From: Ameyamaea chiangmaiensis
GTDB lineage: Bacteria > Pseudomonadota > Alphaproteobacteria > Acetobacterales > Acetobacteraceae
Assembly: GCF_013376175.1 (NCBI RefSeq)
Contig: NZ_JABXXR010000001.1
Span: 1 to 64,000 of the forward strand
Reading direction: 5' to 3'
DNA length: 64,000 bases
Shown: positions 28,873-47,751 of the stretch, in pieces
Layout of the letters: each line of letters opens with the position of its first letter
Position numbering within the stretch: position 1 is the stretch's first letter
Made by a program: the position numbers and the translations under genes
The notes under the pieces: model-generated
What the model saw: only the letters and a program-made list of their open reading frames with translations
Database searches by the model: none
What the model was told of the DNA's origin: nothing

Positions 28873-29880
28873 ATGGCATCGATAGTGAAGCGAGGCCGGT
28901 CGTGGAGAGCCATGATCGTGCGCAAGGGGCAGCGCGTCAACGCGACGTTTGACACGCGCCAAGAGGCGGAAGAATGGGCGCTCCAAGCTGAGGCGGCCAT
29001 CATAGCCGGCCAGAAGGTGGCAACCGTCGTTCCGGTACGCGTCGGCCAGACGATAGCCGACCTGCTCCAGCGATATTCGCGCGAGGTGTCTGTTTCCAAG
29101 CGCGGGGCGCGGTGGGAGCATCTGCGCATTGGTACTCTGTGCCGCGAGCCGACATTCTGCCTGCCGGTTCATGAGTTTGGACCAGAGGCGCTGGCGGGCT
29201 GGCGCGATCAGCGATTGAAGGTGGTCGCCGCCTCGACCGTAAACAGAGACCTCAACCTGATATCGGCGGTCATCACTCACGCCATCAAGGAATGGCGCGC
29301 GCCGATAGCGGCGAACCCGGTCCATCTGATCCAGAGACCCCGGAACCCGCGCGCTCGAAAGCGGCGCGTCTCAATGGATGAGAGGCGCGCAATCGCGGCC
29401 GCACTCGGGTGGGACATGGCCAGCGAACCTGGCACCCGGATGCAATGGACAGCATTTGCCTTTTTCGTGGCGCTGGAGACGGCCATGCGAAAAGGAGAGG
29501 TGTTGTCTCTGCGATGGCAGGATGTGGACCTCGAACGTCGCGTTGCCCACCTGTCGATTACCAAGAACGGCGATGAGCGCGACGTGCCTCTGTCCAGCGA
29601 GGCGGTTGCGTTATTCCGGCTTCTCACGAGAGGTGAGGGCTCGCGGCGTATCGTGCGGGTTGAGTCCGGGACGCTCGACCAGTTCTTTCGTCGGGCCCGC
29701 GACAAGGCCGGCCTCCCTGATCTGCACTTCCATGATTCGCGCCGGGAAGCAGCAACGCAATTCAGCAAGAAGCTCTCGAACGTGCTGGAGCTATCGGCGG
29801 TCACTGGGCACCGTTCGCTGAACATCCTCCGGGACTACTATCGCCCCGACCCAACGGATCTGGCAAAGAAGCTGGGTTGA
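28873..29880 (+). CDS. int: Site-specific tyrosine recombinase (phage/island integrase)
   Basis: This 335-residue integrase appears intact. It has an N-terminal arm-binding-like region, a SAM-like core (about 55-160), and a catalytic domain with R206 (TAMRKGE), K231, H287 and R290 (HDSRRE), H313 (TGHRS) and a tyrosine at 322 or 323. The ATG at 28873 lies 210 bases after the broken integrase. It sits between two umuC remnants, which suggests umuC was the insertion target or was carried by an element. Whether it belongs to the prophage that begins 9 kb to the right or to a separate island is not resolved. Confidence 0.88.
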   Translation: MASIVKRGRSWRAMIVRKGQRVNATFDTRQEAEEWALQAEAAIIAGQKVATVVPVRVGQTIADLLQRYSREVSVSKRGARWEHLRIGTLCREPTFCLPVHEFGPEALAGWRDQRLKVVAASTVNRDLNLISAVITHAIKEWRAPIAANPVHLIQRPRNPRARKRRVSMDERRAIAAALGWDMASEPGTRMQWTAFAFFVALETAMRKGEVLSLRWQDVDLERRVAHLSITKNGDERDVPLSSEAVALFRLLTRGEGSRRIVRVESGTLDQFFRRARDKAGLPDLHFHDSRREAATQFSKKLSNVLELSAVTGHRSLNILRDYYRPDPTDLAKKLG

Positions 29881-30634: not shown

Positions 30635-32809
30635 TCAAACAACCGTTCTTCGATCCCACCTATCGGGATTCACTTGCAGTGCCACCGTGCCGGACCAACT
30701 ATCCGAAGCCAGATATGGGCCTGCGCTGTGAATCTGAAGCGCCATGATAGCTGTGCTGCTAACTGACCGAGAACAAAGCGGTAGCAGTGCACTTCCATTT
30801 GTCCAGCGCATCGCACCATTTTCGACATTGTTCCACCCAGGTAGATCAGTGTCATGCAAATGGGAGATCAACGTCGTCGTGGTCTCAGATTCAAAAATCT
30901 TGATATTACCGACCAACACACCAAGTATACGACGATCATCCACAAAAGGACCGATCACATCGTAGGGACGGCTGGCATTGGACAGAATACGAACAGACCT
31001 CACGCCAGGAGGGATCTTGAACATGACCCGATCTTCCGCCCTGCGGATAGGATGAAGCATATGCCCGGCTTCGGTGACAAGACGTAACCCATCTTCGTAT
31101 GTCAGAATCGGAGCTTGCGACCGACCCGCATGTTCGACGCGATCAGCCAGGGACTGAAAGCTCCGAAACAGAGGTTCAACAAAATGACGCGAAACATCGA
31201 GCGGGGCCGCCGCATCATCCCAAGTTAAATTACGGCTACGCCCAATTGAGACAACCGGACCGCTCTGGTCGAAGGCGAGCCTGTTACCGGTATCGAGGTA
31301 GCTTTCGGTTAATACGCCATCGGCCATAATGACAGAGTGATCCTCTGTCTCCACATGATAATAATCGTAAGATGCTATGCTTTTATCGAAAAAAATCGAA
31401 CGCCCGTTGACAAGCATTCGGACCGGGACGAAACGACCATCAAGAAACAGACAATGTTCTGATGTAATCATCATATTCTTGTAGGGAACGTTGTGTGCAA
31501 TCGCCCCTTTCAACAGACGCACCGGATAGCCAGCTTCATCATCCGGCAGACCTGCACGAACGATAGCACGCGATTGTCCTACCCATGTCACCTGCCTGAT
31601 GGTGCCGTTTGTCACGTCGTCATCAAAGGCAACAATGTAATCGCCGATCTGGATCTCTTCTACGGGAATATCGCCTCTGGTCGTACGTATACGACTTCCC
31701 CGACAAAAGCAGGCGACATCAGATACACTCAGAATGGCAGTGTTGCTTCCGTAAGTCTTCCCAAAACTCTGAGACCCGCCACTTCCGGCGACAACTGTAT
31801 CTGAAAGATTTGGAAGGGCAAAATTCGTAAGACCATTACCGCCGTAAGTTGTGCCCAAAAGGGCAAAAAGCGCCTGGTTTTGAGCAATGGGTAGCAGTGT
31901 ACCATTCGCCAATACCCACCCCTGAGGAATGGAGGCTGCTGATCCCGCGTAAGCACGAATTTCGCCCATGACGGGACCACTATCGCTACCTGAATTAGGA
32001 AAAGCGCCGCTAACACAGATAATGTAATTTAGTGCGAGCCCGGGAGCACGATTGTCAAAAGACGTACCGCTGCCTCCATCAGACACGGGGACATTCGCAT
32101 CACTCAGTGAGACTGCCTGCTTTCCTACGACAGACCCCAGTTTTAACGTGCTGGATGTCCCGATAATGCTGCGCCCAGTCAGATTAGGTAGCGCAAATGT
32201 TGTCCGTCCATCTCCGCCATAAGTGGTGCCAATGACCGCATATAACTGGGGATATTCGGCGATAGGCAGTAATTGCCCGGCCGCTACAAGAAACTGACCA
32301 CTAGAGATCGAGAATGTTGACCCTGCAAAAGCGTCAACCTCTCCCACAAATCCCGGCGACGACGAATCACTCGTCACGCGAATGAGATAATTAACGTTCA
32401 AAGAAGGTTGAGCGTTATCCACTGACTGACTGACGCCACCCAATGCTGGCGGCAACTGGTCTTCGGTCAGCGTGGTCTGGCTTTCACCAGTCACCTGTCC
32501 CAAATACGCGCTGCTTTGGCTTCCTACTTCTACTTTTCCTGTCAGATCCGGAAGATTGAAACTTTTATAGCCGTCTCCACCATACATCGAGCCAAGAGAG
32601 GCATAGAGCTGCTCGTTGCCCGAAACGGAAAGAAGCTGCCCCTGACTCTTTAAGGTAACTGACGTTAAAACATTGTCAAAAGCAAAGGTTCGGATCATTG
32701 ATATCGGCATATCCGAGGAGCTTTCGGCAGATACAAAGCTACCGCTGAAGACAATCGCCTGCGTCAACGTTATGGTCTGCTGATTATTATCGAACACCAC
32801 GGAAGTCAT
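30635..32809 (-). CDS. Tail-collar repeat protein fused to a Hint_2 domain
   Basis: This 724-residue protein begins with three phage tail-collar-like repeats (about 35-100, 155-215 and 280-340). Each repeat has a YGG-G----F-LP-L core: MYGGDGYKSFNLPDLTG, TYGGDGRTTFALPNLTG and TYGGNGLTNFALPNLSD. Such repeats occur in phage short tail fibres and in bacterial microcystin-dependent-protein homologues. A Hint domain follows from about C367 (ACFCRGSRI), with TSEHC and a YYHVETEDH segment, and then a tail homologous to that of the protein at 4118-5983 (shared GPFVDDRR-LGVLVG and RWTNG). No intein C-terminus is present. It is divergent from a winged-helix gene, across an AT-rich 225-base region. Likely a surface or secreted protein; the function is unknown. 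Confidence 0.78.
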   Translation of the reverse strand: MTSVVFDNNQQTITLTQAIVFSGSFVSAESSSDMPISMIRTFAFDNVLTSVTLKSQGQLLSVSGNEQLYASLGSMYGGDGYKSFNLPDLTGKVEVGSQSSAYLGQVTGESQTTLTEDQLPPALGGVSQSVDNAQPSLNVNYLIRVTSDSSSPGFVGEVDAFAGSTFSISSGQFLVAAGQLLPIAEYPQLYAVIGTTYGGDGRTTFALPNLTGRSIIGTSSTLKLGSVVGKQAVSLSDANVPVSDGGSGTSFDNRAPGLALNYIICVSGAFPNSGSDSGPVMGEIRAYAGSAASIPQGWVLANGTLLPIAQNQALFALLGTTYGGNGLTNFALPNLSDTVVAGSGGSQSFGKTYGSNTAILSVSDVACFCRGSRIRTTRGDIPVEEIQIGDYIVAFDDDVTNGTIRQVTWVGQSRAIVRAGLPDDEAGYPVRLLKGAIAHNVPYKNMMITSEHCLFLDGRFVPVRMLVNGRSIFFDKSIASYDYYHVETEDHSVIMADGVLTESYLDTGNRLAFDQSGPVVSIGRSRNLTWDDAAAPLDVSRHFVEPLFRSFQSLADRVEHAGRSQAPILTYEDGLRLVTEAGHMLHPIRRAEDRVMFKIPPGVRSVRILSNASRPYDVIGPFVDDRRILGVLVGNIKIFESETTTTLISHLHDTDLPGWNNVENGAMRWTNGSALLPLCSRSVSSTAIMALQIHSAGPYLASDSWSGTVALQVNPDRWDRRTVV

Positions 32810-35784: not shown

Positions 35785-38442
35785 TCAAGAAATAGGAATG
35801 ACCGCCATCCTTTGTAGGTAAGGATCAACGCTAATTACTTTTACAGTCACAGCGTTCCCTTCGTTGAAGGCCGGATCATGCTGGTAATCGGAAGGTAATT
35901 TGCTGGCGGGCATGAGCGCATCAAGACCTGGCTCCATCTGAACGAATACGCCGAAGGCCTTCACGGCCTTCGCAGTTGCCGAATGCGTGCTACCAACCGG
36001 AAACTGCTTGTAGATGCCTTGCCATACGGGAGGCACCGTCGCCCGCTCAAAGCTTTCGATGCTGTTCCAACTCTTTGTTAGGTCGGTCATCTCATCGAAA
36101 AGCTCGGGTGAACGATACGCAGATACAGCGGCTCTCTCCCTATCTTTCGAAGCAGTGATGACCTCCAAAAAATCCCTCGCGTTGTGCAATGTAGTCAACT
36201 TGGAATAGTGCGTGTCCTCATCGCGAATCCTTAATGCGATCTTTTCGGCAATCTCCTTGCTGAAATACCAACTGTCCTCCGCGATGGCAGCCAGATAATT
36301 TACATCCCCCATCATCTGGTTGTGCACCAGACCGGCCGGAGCTAGCGCGACAAGGTCTTCGTCTGACAAATTTTCAACTCGGAAATCTTCTGTCACCACG
36401 CAGAGGCCACGAACGAGAGCTTCGAGTTCGCGGTCGAACACGCTGTCTTCAACTCCGAAGCCAGAAAGCTTTTCTCTAATCGATCCGATCTGCTCATAGC
36501 CTTTGAGGCGTTTTGGGCCGAACTGATCCATCCTTTTGAGAAGAAAGCGAATAATCATTAGGCGAGTAAAGTAATTTGTGCGAGAATCATGCTCATCAAT
36601 GCTAAGAATATTTTTTAAATATCCGTGAGTGCTGTTATAGTAGCGCTGATTTAACCTGAGAAGAACTGTTGTTACTAAACGAAGTGGAAGTACATACTGC
36701 CCCTTTGACTGCCTTATTTTAAAAAATTCCTCTTCACCGATATGGCCGCTAGTGCAGAATTCAAGGAATATCTCAAGAGCTCTCCGCATGTTTCGACCCG
36801 AAAGGCCGACGATTAGTCGACGGACGTGGAGGCCATGTTCGAAAATCGACCTCATGATTGATGATAGATAGTAAGCCTGCTCGGATGCCGGATAGTCTAC
36901 ATGCATTCCGTTAGGCAAAGCATAGCGAAGGATACGATTACCTTCGGCAGCAATTGAATTCAGCGCCATCTGGATGCGGCTTTGAAGAATGGCCTGGAAC
37001 AGCGGCGGTTCGATTCGGAACACCATGTCTTTCAGCGCCGTGTCGAGGGGGGGCTCATTTCTATGGTTGTCATAAGTCTCCTCGCGGAGAGGCAGCACGA
37101 CAAGCCCTGTAAATTCGCGCTGTAACCATTGCGCCGTCTCAAACATCAGGAGTTGCTCGTCTCTTAGCCTCTTGTCGCAATTGTCGAGCACGATGACAAA
37201 CAGCTTGCCAGATTCCGTGGTCAAATATCGAGCTAATGCCAACGCCGACTTGTGAAGGTCATTCGACAAGGAAGACAGAATATCGGCGAGCTTCGCATTC
37301 CAGGCCGTATTGTCCTTCTCCAAGAGGCGGCCAACGCCCTTTCTGAAGGCATTGACGCTAGGAGCGTGCACCGATTTCAAAACACTAATGTCATCAAAAT
37401 CAATTTTTGGATGGGCTATCTTCAACCCTTCGATGATTTCGCGCCGCAGCCAATCGTATATTTCCGTTCGAGAGATCGGTGCTGGATTCATGTTTATGCG
37501 GATCCAGACCGTCTTCGCTTTCACGTCTGCGGGAAGCGCAACCTCCTGCAGATAATCTACGAAAGTAGTCTTGCCGGCCCCCGCGCTGCCTATCAGCAGG
37601 AGGATCTGTTGCTCCAGTTTCCTGCCTGACCGGAAAGTCCTGACGATTTCCGAGGGTTTTCCAGTATTCTCCAGCGTCTTGGACTGAGACACCGACGGCG
37701 GGGTAGCGGCGCGAATGATCCTATCGATCGGCTCAATGTATCGCTCCCGCCGTTTTGAAGGAATATATCCGTGCTTCGCTATAGCAACACGGTCCTCGTG
37801 GTTTATCGGATTGAATATATGCGAGAAATCAGCAGATATCGTCGCACCAAAGTTATTTATCGGAACTTCTTCCCGCTGAATGGCTGATCCACCGACCAGT
37901 TTTCTTGGCTTCCACAGACGTTGTGGCCGAAATCGGGGAACGATGGCGTGGTATATCTTCTTGACAGCATTCTCGCTATAGCCCTGCAAAAGCTGACCCA
38001 TTAACTCGCTCGTCGGCTCTATGTCATCGTAACCCATCTCAAGGGTAGGCTTTGCTTGATCTGCATGCCCTGCCGTGAGGCGCCTGCCATCCACAGCAAT
38101 GATGAGTGAACAAGGGTTCAGCTTTGTAGGATAGGAAGAGTTCAACTCCGCCGCATACAGCCTTGCCTCCCGAAATGCCTCCGAAAGATCACTCCCCGGT
38201 AGTTTCGCCTCTATGATCAGAATAGGGAGACCACTTACTGTGACAATGTAGTCTGGGTAGTAGACTTTGCGGCGTTCGCCCTTATCGATAGCGAGCCCCT
38301 TCACATTCGCTTTCGTATGAATGTCGGAAGGCTGGTAACCTAAGCCGCTCGGCAGATCCGATACAAGCAACGGGAAAACAAACTTCTGTTCGACGTCGCT
38401 TTCCGTTTTGAGCGCTGATAGCGCCGGCTTGGCAAACTGCAT
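35785..38442 (-). CDS. HsdR_N-like nuclease / P-loop NTPase / S1 domain protein, candidate anti-phage protein
   Basis: This 885-residue protein has three parts. Residues about 10-125 resemble the N-terminal nuclease domain of type I restriction subunits, with a PD-(D/E)XK core: D64 in YYPDYIV, then E78 and K80 in LIIEAKLPG. Residues about 275-600 form a P-loop NTPase: Walker A GSAGAGKTT at 285-293, Walker B FVIVLDNCDKR with D420, and an ORC/STAND-like NMRRALEIF segment near 551. Residues about 819-885 match an S1 RNA-binding fold (KAFGVFVQMEPGLDALMPAS and a VTVKVISVD strand). No helicase motifs or methylase partner gene are present, so it is not a type I restriction subunit. It stands alone next to the end of the prophage late operon. 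I infer a one-gene nucleic-acid-sensing defence effector; this is not proven. Confidence 0.6.
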   Translation of the reverse strand: MQFAKPALSALKTESDVEQKFVFPLLVSDLPSGLGYQPSDIHTKANVKGLAIDKGERRKVYYPDYIVTVSGLPILIIEAKLPGSDLSEAFREARLYAAELNSSYPTKLNPCSLIIAVDGRRLTAGHADQAKPTLEMGYDDIEPTSELMGQLLQGYSENAVKKIYHAIVPRFRPQRLWKPRKLVGGSAIQREEVPINNFGATISADFSHIFNPINHEDRVAIAKHGYIPSKRRERYIEPIDRIIRAATPPSVSQSKTLENTGKPSEIVRTFRSGRKLEQQILLLIGSAGAGKTTFVDYLQEVALPADVKAKTVWIRINMNPAPISRTEIYDWLRREIIEGLKIAHPKIDFDDISVLKSVHAPSVNAFRKGVGRLLEKDNTAWNAKLADILSSLSNDLHKSALALARYLTTESGKLFVIVLDNCDKRLRDEQLLMFETAQWLQREFTGLVVLPLREETYDNHRNEPPLDTALKDMVFRIEPPLFQAILQSRIQMALNSIAAEGNRILRYALPNGMHVDYPASEQAYYLSSIMRSIFEHGLHVRRLIVGLSGRNMRRALEIFLEFCTSGHIGEEEFFKIRQSKGQYVLPLRLVTTVLLRLNQRYYNSTHGYLKNILSIDEHDSRTNYFTRLMIIRFLLKRMDQFGPKRLKGYEQIGSIREKLSGFGVEDSVFDRELEALVRGLCVVTEDFRVENLSDEDLVALAPAGLVHNQMMGDVNYLAAIAEDSWYFSKEIAEKIALRIRDEDTHYSKLTTLHNARDFLEVITASKDRERAAVSAYRSPELFDEMTDLTKSWNSIESFERATVPPVWQGIYKQFPVGSTHSATAKAVKAFGVFVQMEPGLDALMPASKLPSDYQHDPAFNEGNAVTVKVISVDPYLQRMAVIPIS

Positions 38443-41183: not shown

Positions 41184-41659
41184 GCAGCGATCGCCTTCTG
41201 AAAGAGCGCGATGGTGGCGTCATCGACAGAGCCCGCGCCCATCTGGCTGTTGTAATGGCGCTTCCAGTACCGCGCCCAACCGACGGCATCGTCCGCAGCG
41301 GGCAGGGGGGCGGGCGCACGAAACACCTTCACCCGCGCCATCGCGCAGGCGTAGCGGTCGTTCGCCACCATCTGGTCAGCACTCGGCCTGTTGCCGCCGA
41401 GGATCTTCAGCAGCGCCGTTTGCAGGTCGAGGCGGTAACGGATGAAATTCCGCCAGCAGTCATCGTGCGTGGCCGGTTCCATCTGCCAGTAGCCCAGCGC
41501 CGGACCGCCGGAGATCTGATGCCGGTAGAGATAGGCGCTCTCGCGCGCGCCAATCCCGGTCAGGCCGTTCACCGCGCTCGGCGTGTTCATCGCGGCCGGC
41601 AGTAGCGCGAGCGTCGGGATGACCAGCGTGTGCTTAGCCTCGGAAATCAGGTTGATCAT
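41180..41659 (-). CDS. Prophage endolysin-like protein (muramidase/transglycosylase type)
   Basis: This 159-residue protein has an early hydrophobic stretch (about 8-24) and a lysozyme-like segment GIGARESAYLYRH with a candidate catalytic Glu near 39. This is followed by GPALGYWQMEPATHDDCW, like the G-x-x-Q/W-x-E region of phage lytic transglycosylase-type enzymes. It lies between small membrane proteins in a lysis block. The ATG at 41659 is chosen because it fits the domain start; it lies inside the upstream gene. Confidence 0.65.
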   Translation of the reverse strand: MINLISEAKHTLVIPTLALLPAAMNTPSAVNGLTGIGARESAYLYRHQISGGPALGYWQMEPATHDDCWRNFIRYRLDLQTALLKILGGNRPSADQMVANDRYACAMARVKVFRAPAPLPAADDAVGWARYWKRHYNSQMGAGSVDDATIALFQKAIAA

Positions 41660-41972
41660 GGTGCCTCTCGGCTTGCTGAATGCGCCGCAGTTCGTCTTCG
41701 GCACGGTCGGCCTGCTGGCGTGTCCGCTCATGCGCCGACCGTTCTCCAGCCAGATCACGCATTGCCGCATCACGCTGTTCGACGATCGCGCGGTAGCGAT
41801 CCTCATCACGCGCATGCTCGACGCGCTGGCCGGCCTGATAGGTGCCGAACAGTTGGGAAATGCCGCGCAGAACGGCGGCGATAGGAAAGAGAACCGCGAT
41901 GATCGGGACGACCCACGGGTAATGCTGCGTCAGGAACGGCGCGACGGACGCCCAGATCTGATCGAGGCGCAT
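41634..41972 (-). CDS. Spanin-like small protein with membrane segment and coiled coil
   Basis: This 112-residue protein has one or two N-terminal membrane segments (about 18-45) followed by a highly charged helix (about 50-105, rich in Arg, Glu, Asp and Gln) that would form a coiled coil. This matches the i-spanin (Rz) layout. It overlaps the endolysin start. No outer-membrane partner was identified unless the distal lipoprotein serves as one. Confidence 0.5.
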   Translation of the reverse strand: MRLDQIWASVAPFLTQHYPWVVPIIAVLFPIAAVLRGISQLFGTYQAGQRVEHARDEDRYRAIVEQRDAAMRDLAGERSAHERTRQQADRAEDELRRIQQAERHHDQPDFRG

Positions 41973-42578: not shown

Positions 42579-44312
42579 TCACTGGATCACGTCCCCGACC
42601 GCGATCTTGTGCCATGCGCCGTTTTCGTAGACGGCCATCGTATGCGCGTCTGCGTCGTTCGCGAGCCAGCCGTCCTGCGGGCTGACCAGAGCAATAATCT
42701 CGGCCTCTGTCAGTTCCGGCAGAGCCGCATATTGCGTGACGGTCAGCACGTCGGTTTTCGTGCCGCCGCGCACCGCGATACCCTTATTCCCGAACTTGAA
42801 ATCCCGGCTTACGCCCGGATCAGGATCTGTGAATGCCCCGTTCGAAACGTCGGACTCGCCCCCGGTGATATTGATGGCTTGGAAGAAATCCGGCGACGAC
42901 CCGTCCATCGGGAACATCATGATGATGCGATTGCTGTTCTTCTCGATCAGCGCGATCCGGCTCGGATTTGTGAGCCACTGCCAGTCGAGGGTGTTCACGC
43001 CAGCGCCAAACACACGCCAGAATGTCTGATCCATGTCGCCGGAGCCGGGATGGGCAATCGTGCAGACGACAGCCCCTGAGCACCAGTGAGCGCGATCAAC
43101 ATACCCATTCGGGTCGTTACCGATGATCATGTTGACGTCGGCGTTGTTACCGATGTCCAGAGACGCGACCGGGTGGTCATTGAACATACCGATCCGGTTT
43201 TCGACACGCGCGAGATCAAGCATCGACGTGTGATAGATGCCGCCGTTCGCTGACCCGCCATGGTCGTAGAAGCGCAGGTCGCCGAAATTGTTGACGTCAA
43301 GGAAATGCTCCTGCGTCCATACCGCCTGCCCGAACGCCAGATAGTCGCCGAAATAGCCATCCGTCGAATTTTCAGTGACCGGGCCGACCTGATCGACGCC
43401 AGCTTGTGGCGTGGACAGGGTGATGGTGTTCGTCCCACCGCCGCTGACGATCGTGGTCCCCGGTTGTATCCAGCCAAACAGATGCGGCGCGATGATCGTC
43501 TGACCCTCGATCCCCGTCGGCCATGTGCAGTTCGCATCAGGCTGGTCGCCATCACCCGTGCGGACGCACTTGACCTGGTTCGATCCCTTCACGAGCAGGC
43601 CATACATGTGCTGATAGGTGTCGTTGACGAAATGCACACCGCTTTGCTGCAAGCCCACTGCCGTAGCCTCAAACGTATTGTTTATGGCGCTGGAGCCTTC
43701 CTTCGCGAAGTGCGAGAACTCGATAAAGCCGTAGCCGCGCAGATGATCGAGCATCAGACTCGCGCCATAACCGATCGCCATGTGCTCCATCATTCCGGCC
43801 TGGAGATTGTAGTAGTCCGGCTGGCGGAACGTCAGGGCGACATACGCCGAGGGCGACCAGTTCTGGAGCGCCATGCTGTTCGTCCCCGGCATGGCGTAGG
43901 ACAGCGTCGGCTCGTTGGGGTAGTCCGCGTTCCAGGTCCACTGCGGTCCACCGCCCTGCGGGTTGTTCGGGTCCGCCAGCATCACCCCGGCGGTGGGCTT
44001 TGCATCTAGGGCGTCGTTCTTGTCGTAGCCACCCTTAATCCGCGCAACGCTCGACGCGATTGGCGCCGTGATGTTGCCCGCCCCGTCCGTGTAGGTCGCG
44101 GTCGGCATGGCCGCCGCTGCCGCGGTGTTCGCGGCGTCGATTGACTGACCCCATTTCTGGATCGTTTGACCGTCAAGTGTGGTGCCAGGTGCGTGCAAAA
44201 TGCTGTTAGAGCTAGCGCCGCCAGGGATAACGAAACCACCAGATGCAGCAAGAGATGTCCCGACCATCAGCACGAACGCGCCGAACGGGAGAACGAACTG
44301 GAGCTTATTCAT
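42579..44312 (-). CDS. Hypothetical prophage protein, probably fibre or receptor-binding related
   Basis: This 577-residue protein has no domain I recognise. It has a signal-peptide-like N-terminus (MNKLQFVLPFGAFVLMVGTS then LAAS), unusual for a virion fibre. The rest is rich in Gly, Asn and aromatic residues, with beta-type segments and a C-terminal region ending in an AVYENGAWHKIAVGD module seen in phage tail proteins. Its place between the tailspike region and the lysis genes supports a host-interaction role. The start overlaps the preceding stop (ATGA). Confidence 0.5.
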   Translation of the reverse strand: MNKLQFVLPFGAFVLMVGTSLAASGGFVIPGGASSNSILHAPGTTLDGQTIQKWGQSIDAANTAAAAAMPTATYTDGAGNITAPIASSVARIKGGYDKNDALDAKPTAGVMLADPNNPQGGGPQWTWNADYPNEPTLSYAMPGTNSMALQNWSPSAYVALTFRQPDYYNLQAGMMEHMAIGYGASLMLDHLRGYGFIEFSHFAKEGSSAINNTFEATAVGLQQSGVHFVNDTYQHMYGLLVKGSNQVKCVRTGDGDQPDANCTWPTGIEGQTIIAPHLFGWIQPGTTIVSGGGTNTITLSTPQAGVDQVGPVTENSTDGYFGDYLAFGQAVWTQEHFLDVNNFGDLRFYDHGGSANGGIYHTSMLDLARVENRIGMFNDHPVASLDIGNNADVNMIIGNDPNGYVDRAHWCSGAVVCTIAHPGSGDMDQTFWRVFGAGVNTLDWQWLTNPSRIALIEKNSNRIIMMFPMDGSSPDFFQAINITGGESDVSNGAFTDPDPGVSRDFKFGNKGIAVRGGTKTDVLTVTQYAALPELTEAEIIALVSPQDGWLANDADAHTMAVYENGAWHKIAVGDVIQ

Positions 44313-44879: not shown

Positions 44880-45351
44880 CTAGGACAAATTCGTCCCGAT
44901 AACGACTGATGCTGTCGAACTCGCGTTATTCAACACGCCAGCCGTCACATTGCTGGACAGGTCGTTACCGTTGACCAGCACCTGCGTCGCACCATTGGCG
45001 ATGCTGACGCCCGCGCGCTGGCTGTTATTTCCGGGACCACTCATCACGCCGTTAATGAGCACGTCCGTGGCGCTGCTGCCGATCGCGACCCCGTCGCTGG
45101 TGTTTGTCGTTCCACCCCGCACATCGCGGGAGTTACTGAAAAACCGGGTGCCATGGACGCTGACGCGCGTTCCGTTAATCACAAGGCCGTCCTGGCCCGC
45201 GTCACTGGACTTTCCGCCCACAAATGAAACGTCCTTGGCCCCGGAACCTACATAGACATTCGGTGCGGCCCACGTATCTTCAAGGCTCATCTTGAAGACG
45301 TCCGTCGTGGCGACACTGTCAATCTGGAGCGCTGACGCGGCGCAGGAACCA
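44880..45351 (-). pseudogene. Promoterless second copy of the tailspike C-terminal half
   Basis: From CAASALQIDSVATTDVFKM onward this frame aligns along its full length with the last 155 or so residues of the tailspike at 46342-47751. Both contain FFSNSR, YDGVAIG/SDGVAIG and SGPGNNSQR. The N-terminal virion-attachment part is absent, and the frame upstream (to 45491) is not protein-like. Homology stops abruptly at about 45346. It could be a dead duplication or a silent receptor-binding cassette. Confidence 0.7.
45259..45345. repeat. 87-base direct repeat shared with 46721-46807
   Basis: The two 87-base segments differ at only four positions and lie in the same orientation. Both encode the same beta-helix turn of the tailspike. 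They are long enough to support homologous recombination that would delete the DNA between them and swap the tailspike end. Confidence 0.75.
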
Positions 45352-45597
45352 CGGGAAAGCCGCTCAGAAATTATGTGAAAAACATGCGCCACACTGGGTT
45401 TCCATCTCGCTAGACGTAAGCATGTTGGCGGGTGTGCGTGGAGATGTACAAATCTTCGTGACATCCTCGGTCCGAAAAACATGATTTTCAAGTGTTACCA
45501 GCTATGCAACAGTCACGACAGCAGAAAAGATTGCTCACGGGGAGAGCAAAATTTATCTTAGTCCTCCCACAAATTCGCTTTGCGACGGAGAAAATTA

Positions 45598-46122
45598 GTG
45601 GAACTTTATCCAAAGAGAGTTTTCCAGAGACAATTAAAACTTCAGGCTGAATTTATTATCATTTCTTCTGAACAGATAAATTCTGCATTAAAGGAGCGCG
45701 ATGTAACTAAAGTTTTTTACTCCATTCAGAACTTCCTCAATGCATCTGCCAATATCGCGAAATGTCTATTCGGATCTGGCGGTAGAAAATGCGCGCAGAG
45801 AAAATCATTGCGTGAGAGCATAGGAGTTGACGAGAACTCACCATTCAAAAATGTTTCGGCACGAAATAATTTCGAGCATATGGACGAGAGAATAGATCGG
45901 TGGTGGGGCGAGTCGCGACGTCATAATCTCTGCGATCTAAATATCACGCCAGCTGGATTTATTCAGGGTTTCGAGACTGTTGAATGGTTCCGGAATTTTG
46001 ACCCAGAGACGACTGATATAACTTTCTTTAGCGAGAAGTTTAATCTTCAGGAGATTGTAGACGAAGTCCAACGGATATACCCGAAGCTGCAAGAAGAAGC
46101 AGGTAAACCTCACTGGGAGTGA
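45598..46122 (+). CDS. HEPN-domain RNase candidate, opposite strand within the tail-fibre region
   Basis: This 174-residue protein is all-helical in appearance. It has a HEPN-type RX4H motif at R89-H94 (SARNNFEHMDERIDRWW), the signature of many defence and toxin RNases. The GTG at 45598 is chosen because GGAG lies seven bases upstream; a TTG at 45580 has no such site. The gene is on the + strand while all surrounding late genes are on the minus strand, and it is clearly AT-richer than them. Both features mark a moron (late acquisition). No antitoxin partner is adjacent, so a self-contained abortive-infection or superinfection role is inferred. Confidence 0.6.
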   Translation: MELYPKRVFQRQLKLQAEFIIISSEQINSALKERDVTKVFYSIQNFLNASANIAKCLFGSGGRKCAQRKSLRESIGVDENSPFKNVSARNNFEHMDERIDRWWGESRRHNLCDLNITPAGFIQGFETVEWFRNFDPETTDITFFSEKFNLQEIVDEVQRIYPKLQEEAGKPHWE

Positions 46123-46318
46123 GATTTTTTTCAATCACTGTAGGCAGTGGGAAATGACACATCCCTTCATGGGGCCATGGAAGAATGCAGTGGCCACAAA
46201 GCTCATAGTGATTGATAGTCCACTGCTTTACGACTTCCAGACGCAGCGATGTAACCTCTGACCTGAGGTTTGCATCAGAACCTTTCGTCGCAAAAGATAG
46301 CATCTGCATATCTGACAT
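46040..46318 (-). CDS. Small hypothetical protein behind the tailspike, possibly truncated
   Basis: This possible 92-residue protein (MSDMQMLSFATKG...) starts 24 bases after the tailspike stop with GGCGGAG upstream. It has a putative metal-binding segment CGHCILPWPHEGMC. Its last part overlaps the 3' end of the opposite-strand HEPN gene by 83 bases, so the natural C-terminus may have been replaced when that gene arrived. Confidence 0.4.
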   Translation of the reverse strand: MSDMQMLSFATKGSDANLRSEVTSLRLEVVKQWTINHYELCGHCILPWPHEGMCHFPLPTVIEKNLTPSEVYLLLLAASGISVGLRLQSPED

Positions 46319-46341: not shown

Positions 46342-47751
46342 TCACTGAAGGTTGTTCGTAACAACGAAGTTGTCGCTGTTGCTTGCATTGTTCAGCACAC
46401 CACCCGAGGCGTTGCTGGTGAGGTCGTTCCCCACCACCACGGTGCACTGGGCACCGTTGGCGATGCTGACCCCGTAACGCTGGCTGTTGTTGCCCGGACC
46501 GCTGGAAGCGCCCGTCACCGTGACGTGCTGCGCGTCAGCCCCGATCGCCACGCCGTCATACGTGTTGACCGTTCCTCCCCGCTCGGCGCGCGAGTTACTG
46601 AAAAACCGTGTGCCGTTCACGGTGACGCGCGTCCCGTGAATGACGATGCCTTCCTGACCGGCATCGCTCGACTTGCCGCCATGGAACCCGACGTCCTTCG
46701 CCCCCGCACCGACGTAGATATTCGGTGCGGCCCACGTGTCCTCAAGACTCATCTTGAAGACGTCCATCGTGGCGACACTGTCAATCTGGAGCGCTGACGC
46801 GGCGCAGAAGTCAGACTCAATGCCGTCAAACTGCACATATCCGGGACCAGCTGGCGCCCCAATAGTGTTGCGCAGCCAGTAACCATGCCCCTCGATGCAG
46901 GTTGCATACGCCTTGTAAATGCAGACCGTGTTACACAGGCCGTCAATGACAATACCATGCGCGCGGATGGTTGGCGTGCCAGATGTGGGGGCACTCCCCC
47001 CCATGCCAAAATCCCGAATGGTAATGACATCGGACGTCGTGGTGGTGAGACTGGTAATCAGAAACCGGATATTGTCTCCCCCGCGCAGAGGGCCATCGAC
47101 AACGACCTGTTCCACGACGACATCATTGTAGTGGCGGATTTTCATGCCGTCATAGGGATTGTTGAACGTAACCCGCATGATGCGGATTCTGGCCAGCTGA
47201 AGCATGTTGAGGCACTTGCCGCCGGTCTTGTTGCCTTCCTCGAAGTACAGATCGTAGACGTTGTTGTTATACATCCCGCCAGGACCGCCGGCATTGGTCC
47301 CGTCGATAGTGACGGTGTCGAAGGCACCATACCCGACGATCTGGCTGGCCTGGCCTTGCCCCTGCAACGACACATGCGGCGAGGTGATCGAGAGGCCACC
47401 GGTGACCTTGTACTGTCCAGGCGGAAAGTAGATCGTCGCGCCGCACAGCAGTCCCTGCGCATAACTGATCGCGAGCCTGATCGCCGCCGTGTCATCTGTA
47501 CTGCCGTCACCAAGGGCGCCGAACTGCCTGACGTTCACCCAGTCGAGGAAGCAGGCTTCGAGCGTGCGACGGAAACTCCCGTTGATTTCCAGAAGCGCTT
47601 CCAGCAGGAGAAGATTCTCGGTCTGCCCTCCCTGCGCGTCGACCTTGGTGCCGATCGCGGCAGCGACCGTCGGTGACGTGACGATGTCAGCAGGATCATC
47701 CGTCGCGGCGTACGACTGCCATCCCGGCGTCCAGTTGGCGATCTGGGCCAT
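46342..47751 (-). CDS. Prophage tailspike with right-handed beta-helix (pectate-lyase-3 type)
   Basis: This 469-residue protein has an N-terminal attachment region (about 1-70) and then the typical beta-helix entry VRQFGALGDGSTDDTAAI near 74-91 and an IYFPPGQYKV segment. Repeating short strands run from about 110 to 440, as in tailspikes that bind or cut surface polysaccharide. Its C-terminal third is duplicated at 44880-45351. It lies downstream of the tail-fibre genes in the late operon. Enzymatic activity cannot be judged from sequence. Confidence 0.75.
   Translation of the reverse strand: MAQIANWTPGWQSYAATDDPADIVTSPTVAAAIGTKVDAQGGQTENLLLLEALLEINGSFRRTLEACFLDWVNVRQFGALGDGSTDDTAAIRLAISYAQGLLCGATIYFPPGQYKVTGGLSITSPHVSLQGQGQASQIVGYGAFDTVTIDGTNAGGPGGMYNNNVYDLYFEEGNKTGGKCLNMLQLARIRIMRVTFNNPYDGMKIRHYNDVVVEQVVVDGPLRGGDNIRFLITSLTTTTSDVITIRDFGMGGSAPTSGTPTIRAHGIVIDGLCNTVCIYKAYATCIEGHGYWLRNTIGAPAGPGYVQFDGIESDFCAASALQIDSVATMDVFKMSLEDTWAAPNIYVGAGAKDVGFHGGKSSDAGQEGIVIHGTRVTVNGTRFFSNSRAERGGTVNTYDGVAIGADAQHVTVTGASSGPGNNSQRYGVSIANGAQCTVVVGNDLTSNASGGVLNNASNSDNFVVTNNLQ

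Follow-up and report, generated by a model that had tools for sequence, protein, structure and literature searches.

What function can be assigned to a small gene that lies reversed within the late operon of a prophage, next to tailspike sequence? This question is raised by a 174-residue protein encoded in a 64,000-nucleotide stretch of Ameyamaea chiangmaiensis DNA (contig NZ_JABXXR010000001.1, positions 1 to 64,000; hereafter the window), for which a preliminary description had proposed a HEPN RNase carried as a prophage moron. The answer that we consider the best single guess is that this protein may work like a HEPN RNase, although its sequence and its predicted fold leave considerable room for other explanations.

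Position, signals and composition of the gene

The gene is located on the + strand, opposite to the late operon on the - strand, and is thus antisense within the tail-to-lysis transcription unit (Table 1). Its location, length and reversed orientation were as first described, and so were its AT-richness (42% GC, against 60% for the neighbouring tailspike) and the presence of a ribosome-binding site of its own. The base composition is foreign. An in-frame TTG at 45580 offers an alternative start, weaker than the GTG at 45598, and terminator-like sites, of which one covers the stop codon, numbered three in the region against 1.1 expected. A search for a promoter in 45492-45597 had been suggested; the consensus scan of this interval gave no convincing one, and the weak candidate listed in Table 1 was all that could be put forward.

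The gene had also been placed between two tailspike copies. Tailspike sequences do flank it on both sides; however, one is a full-length gene and the other an orphan C-terminal copy. The homology between them (44920-45345 against 46382-46807) amounts to 76% nucleotide identity, rises almost to identity over the final 48 bp and ends abruptly at 45345, and the two tips are both in frame and similar in length. Judging from these sequences, it is likely that recombination in the shared 48 bp replaced the tip, so that a new tip entered together with the reversed gene and the old tip was left as an orphan. The integrase and the weak spanin match (Table 1) are consistent with a prophage setting, and in a DNA comparison the tail region resembled no known phage.

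Table 1. Features in and around the reversed gene, with positions in the window.
Feature	Position	Strand	Basis or remark
Gene encoding the 174-aa protein	45598..46122	+	GTG start, TGA stop; open reading frame, and full-length relatives at 52% identity or less
GGAG ribosome-binding site	45587..45590	+	7 nt 5' of the GTG; from sequence
Weak promoter candidate TTGCTC-17-TATCTT	45531..45559	+	By eye only; absent from consensus-scan output
Terminator-like hairpin with its T run, covering the stop codon	46109..46130 (hairpin 46109-46123)	+	Terminator scan
R89-N-N-F-E-H94 motif	45862..45879	+	R89, 45862-45864; H94, 45877-45879; R/E/H invariant in aligned motif-bearing members
R132, near-invariant second arginine	45991..45993	+	Family alignment; H in one relative
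Full-length tailspike gene, lying upstream within the late operon	46342..47751	-	PHROG tail/tail spike matches down to 1.5e-09
Orphan C-terminal tailspike tip, lacking the N-terminal part	44880..45345	-	In frame; homology to the full tailspike
92-codon ORF that follows directly on the tailspike stop	46040..46318	-	Antisense overlap with the 3' 83 bp of the 174-aa gene
577-aa late-cluster protein, unclassified	42579..44312	-	Weak DUF2793 match at the C-terminus
Likely Rz-like spanin (lysis)	41634..41972	-	Weak match, E 0.0025
Tyrosine integrase, probably marking the left part of the prophage	28873..29880	+	PF00589, E 6.7e-23

Relatives of the protein and their conserved motif

Scans of the 174-residue protein against Pfam, NCBIfam, PADLOC and PHROG gave no family match, and only scattered sub-threshold matches to unrelated families were obtained, both for this protein and for 19 relatives scanned against Pfam and PHROG. 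A PDB sequence profile search with the family returned nothing. About 28 relatives were collected from phages and prophages of Gram-negative and Gram-positive bacteria, with a few plasmid (Alteromonas, Rubrobacter) or chromosomal copies, and the family is diverse, unnamed and found mostly in temperate phages. Relatives in viral contigs range from 52% down to about 20% identity. The nearest relative, from Rhizobium skierniewicense (52% identity), is a lone chromosomal gene, and therefore phage carriage is not obligatory for the family. Among named phages, tblastn placed in the same family gp37 of Gordonia phage Madeline, gp33 of Gordonia phage ZiggyZoo and a hypothetical protein of Glutamicibacter phage BIM BV-113, all unannotated, only 20-30% identical and encoded in the lysogeny module or the late region of these actinobacterial phages; Madeline gp37 was also the sole viral-library match by fold (BFVD, E 2.7e-05, TM 0.71). 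The distribution is sporadic and very patchy even within the class and the phylum: besides the genome under study, none of 385 genomes of the class has a relative, and 7 others out of 398 genomes of the phylum do.

The Rx4H pair pointed out in the preliminary description (R89 and H94) proved to be conserved among homologues. By chance, an Rx4H is present in 20.6% of shuffles of the 174-residue protein; its occurrence in the family is not due to chance, since it is invariant in 24 aligned members and in Madeline gp37, the 25th motif-bearing sequence (R-D-x-x-E-H). The pattern R-[ND]-x-x-E-H is invariant across these 25 diverse sequences (17-52% identity), every one of which has N or D directly after the arginine. 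The 24-member alignment shows no exception at R89, E93, H94 or D96, the last being constant over all 25 sequences too, and next to none at E97, R98 and R132; the conserved block runs on as E-H-[FM]-D-E-R-[IL]-[DE], and S/K in helix 2 are conserved as well. Losses in the pair are seen in two other branches, namely the plasmid-borne Rubrobacter protein (L006) and three proteins from genomes of the phylum (L028-L030): R89 is missing from all four, H94 from three of the four, and E93, D96 and W are largely kept. Such a loss of R89 and H94 with retention of the acidic residues is as expected for an active-site pair, and these four proteins are likely non-catalytic versions. Two further features were seen in parts of the family: the L028-L030 proteins have charged or Lys/Ala-rich tails, and seven relatives (L012, L014-L018, L020) carry a zinc-ribbon-like insert, CxC-x(n)-CxxC, between helix 2 and the motif.

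The surroundings of the relatives fit the moron placement that had been suggested for the gene. Relatives, mostly in temperate phages, are found in reverse orientation between the tail and the lysis genes, as between endolysin and tail-fibre genes (L007) or between endolysin and tailspike (L008), adjoin tail-type proteins (L009) or face a spanin gene (L011), and an integrase is found inside the fetched flank in at least seven prophages (L011, L012, L014-L018). Madeline gp37 belongs to a repressor-integrase operon, in which it is read in the same direction as the immunity repressor and the integrase; it is located beside the integrase, with a metalloprotease gene on one side and an HTH gene on the other. 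Both neighbours are on the other strand at 10-11 of the 17 loci compared, and this holds for 22-25% of the other genes there; the comparison is only indicative, given crude gene calls and the relatedness of some loci. For relatives on plasmids and in chromosomes the neighbours varied. No adjacent antitoxin gene is conserved, the neighbours differing across the relatives compared, and the earlier remark that a partner antitoxin is absent holds insofar as no dedicated one was found. From its sequence context, the 174-residue gene is probably a lysogeny-expressed prophage moron. A DNA methyltransferase gene adjoins the family member in two loci (L012 and L015).

Predicted fold and comparison with HEPN ribonucleases

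HEPN domains are defined by an Rx4-6H motif with a polar residue (N, D or H) after the arginine and often an Ex3[KR] in helix 2; they fold as a four-helix up-down bundle of two alpha-hairpins, in which helix 3 ends with the motif and the histidine opens the loop that leads to helix 4, and N or D after the arginine has been described for catalytic HEPN domains (PMC3710099). The first two features are present in all 25 motif-bearing members of the family. The helix-2 acid, which is frequent and not universal in HEPN domains, is absent, helix 2 (36-58) having instead conserved Q/N and [SA][KR].

AlphaFold gave confident models of the 174-residue protein (pLDDT 89.5, pTM 0.85) and of the relative L021 (pLDDT 89.4, pTM 0.84). 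The former has predicted helices at 3-32 and 36-58, a short one at 62-75, a broken one at 87-93/95-105, three strands and a last helix at 150-168; the two models agree in their layout: a pair of long helices comes first, then a shorter element and the motif helix, which breaks at the histidine, and a beta-meander precedes the long last helix. R89 is modelled within helix 87-93 and H94 at the helix break, which fits the placement of the motif in HEPN domains, though both flanking helices are short. Compared with a plain four-helix bundle, the core implied by the first assignment, the predicted fold is mixed alpha/beta: besides its three long helices it contains a beta-meander, and the helix that bears the motif is short and broken. 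Foldseek against the PDB found nothing significant for either model, and for the 174-residue protein the best match was FliS (E 0.31), with the HEPN structure 2hsb (E 3.7) within the noise.

In hmmscan the protein matched none of the HEPN families of Pfam, PADLOC or NCBIfam, and hhalign gave no signal against AbiU2, MAE_28990, DUF4145, PF05168 and RiboL-PSP; those families also missed each other, except MAE_28990 and RiboL-PSP, which share members, and reversed-profile controls scored like the real HEPN comparisons. AbiU2, considered as the closest family by motif and size, found no sequence or profile match in its favour. In common with the HEPN abortive-infection RNases (AbiU2, PF18734; MAE_28990, PF18737; RiboL-PSP, PF18735; HEPN, PF05168), the protein has the Rx4-6H motif with N or D after the arginine and is short, mostly helical and stand-alone; it differs from them in the lack of a sequence or profile match, in the short broken helix that bears the motif and in the missing helix-2 acid. 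Hence, the proposal of a HEPN RNase is supported by the conserved motif and the residue after the arginine, while the helix-2 acid is missing. Since the fold does not decide the matter and the profile comparison was too insensitive to do so, the protein was not filed as HEPN.

Possible role in the lysogen and alternative explanations

The best explanation, which we put forward tentatively, is that the gene encodes a lysogeny-expressed, infection-triggered HEPN-like RNase. Its model is Tha, a HEPN RNase of Staphylococcus prophages with an R-N-x3-H motif. Tail proteins of an infecting phage activate Tha, and when the prophage is induced an inhibitor encoded antisense to it, Ith, whose gene overlaps that of Tha, turns it off (PMC11087260). 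Like Tha-1 and Tha-2 of Staphylococcus aureus prophages, the gene codes for a prophage-encoded single protein with R-N-x3-H in an antisense gene architecture; Tha is expressed in lysogeny, and the same is proposed here. The family is encoded mainly by temperate phages, in lysogeny-type or antisense positions, and the place of Madeline gp37 in a repressor operon was counted as a further likeness to the Tha setting. In contrast, Tha has 301 aa and a C-terminal HEPN domain with clear structural matches (PMC11087260), whereas the protein studied here is shorter, contains a beta-meander and has no structural match. The likeness is one of working principle and not of detected homology.

According to this hypothesis, a single-gene moron would be transcribed in the lysogen as a unit of its own, and the protein would remain inactive in the absence of infection. 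R89 and H94, with E93, D96 and E97, might make up a site that cleaves RNA as in HEPN RNases; a component of the incoming phage could switch the protein on, as tail proteins do with Tha, and the cutting of RNA would stop the infection. Because the gene is antisense inside the tail-to-lysis transcription unit, we propose that on induction the late transcript running through it would silence it and prevent self-attack. The invariant motif and the pattern of its loss, the integrases and lone-reversed placement of relatives, the precedent of Tha, the own terminator-like site and the foreign base composition were counted in favour of this reading; the lack of a HEPN match by sequence or structure, the beta-meander, the absence of Ex3[KR] and of a clear promoter and the chromosomal Rhizobium relative were counted against it. 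A role in anti-phage defence is probable, and the genetic layout would tie such defence to the lysogenic state.

The main alternative, which is somewhat less likely, is that the protein has an alpha/beta fold of a new kind, without kinship to HEPN, in which the R/H/E/D cluster would serve another chemistry or the binding of a ligand or partner; the gene would still be a lysogeny-expressed moron, perhaps acting in superinfection exclusion or signalling. The confident models that find no PDB match at E < 0.3 speak for this, and so does the conservation of the E-H block, R132 and the helix-2 S/K, which is more than a HEPN domain needs. Nevertheless, R-[ND]-x3-H with a loss centred on the arginine is a HEPN signature, and HEPN families are poorly conserved outside the motif (PMC3710099). 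Narrower, and unlikely, is the proposition that these proteins are defence RNases of temperate phages and form a hitherto unclassified family, whose fold would be new, of mixed alpha/beta type and built around an R-[ND]-x2-E-H-x-D-E-R active site, and whose antisense location in the late operon would let induction switch them off. In any case, this is a small unannotated gene family with a candidate active site, spread across temperate phages of Gram-negative and Gram-positive hosts: should the protein be an RNase, Tha would gain a compact relative or analogue; should the fold be new, the protein would represent a new type of effector missed by current defence catalogues.

That the gene belongs to ordinary phage biology, in lysogeny control or host takeover and with no part in defence, appears improbable. 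The setting of the Madeline copy and the varied neighbours of plasmid and chromosomal relatives are what such a gene might show, but the invariant, catalytic-looking motif, the patchy distribution and the foreign GC content argue for something else. Least probable is that the protein is the toxin in a toxin-antitoxin system that stabilizes the prophage and that the 92-codon ORF encodes its inhibitor: the position of this ORF and the precedent of Ith and Tha (PMC11087260) would suit it, but no relatives of the ORF were detected in the phages, viral contigs or related genomes searched, so that an inhibitor role is speculation, and the neighbours of other family members are unrelated. The 92-codon ORF encodes a Cys/His cluster (CGHC...CH).

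Two other genes of the window deserve mention. A 724-aa protein (30635-32809, - strand) combines three phage Collar domains with a Hint (intein-like) domain. In an AT-rich stretch, an 885-aa protein (35785-38442, - strand) contains HSDR_N, an AAA-type ATPase region and an S1 domain and is matched by PHROG 14719 (E 1.1e-146); it is possibly a second defence gene of the prophage.
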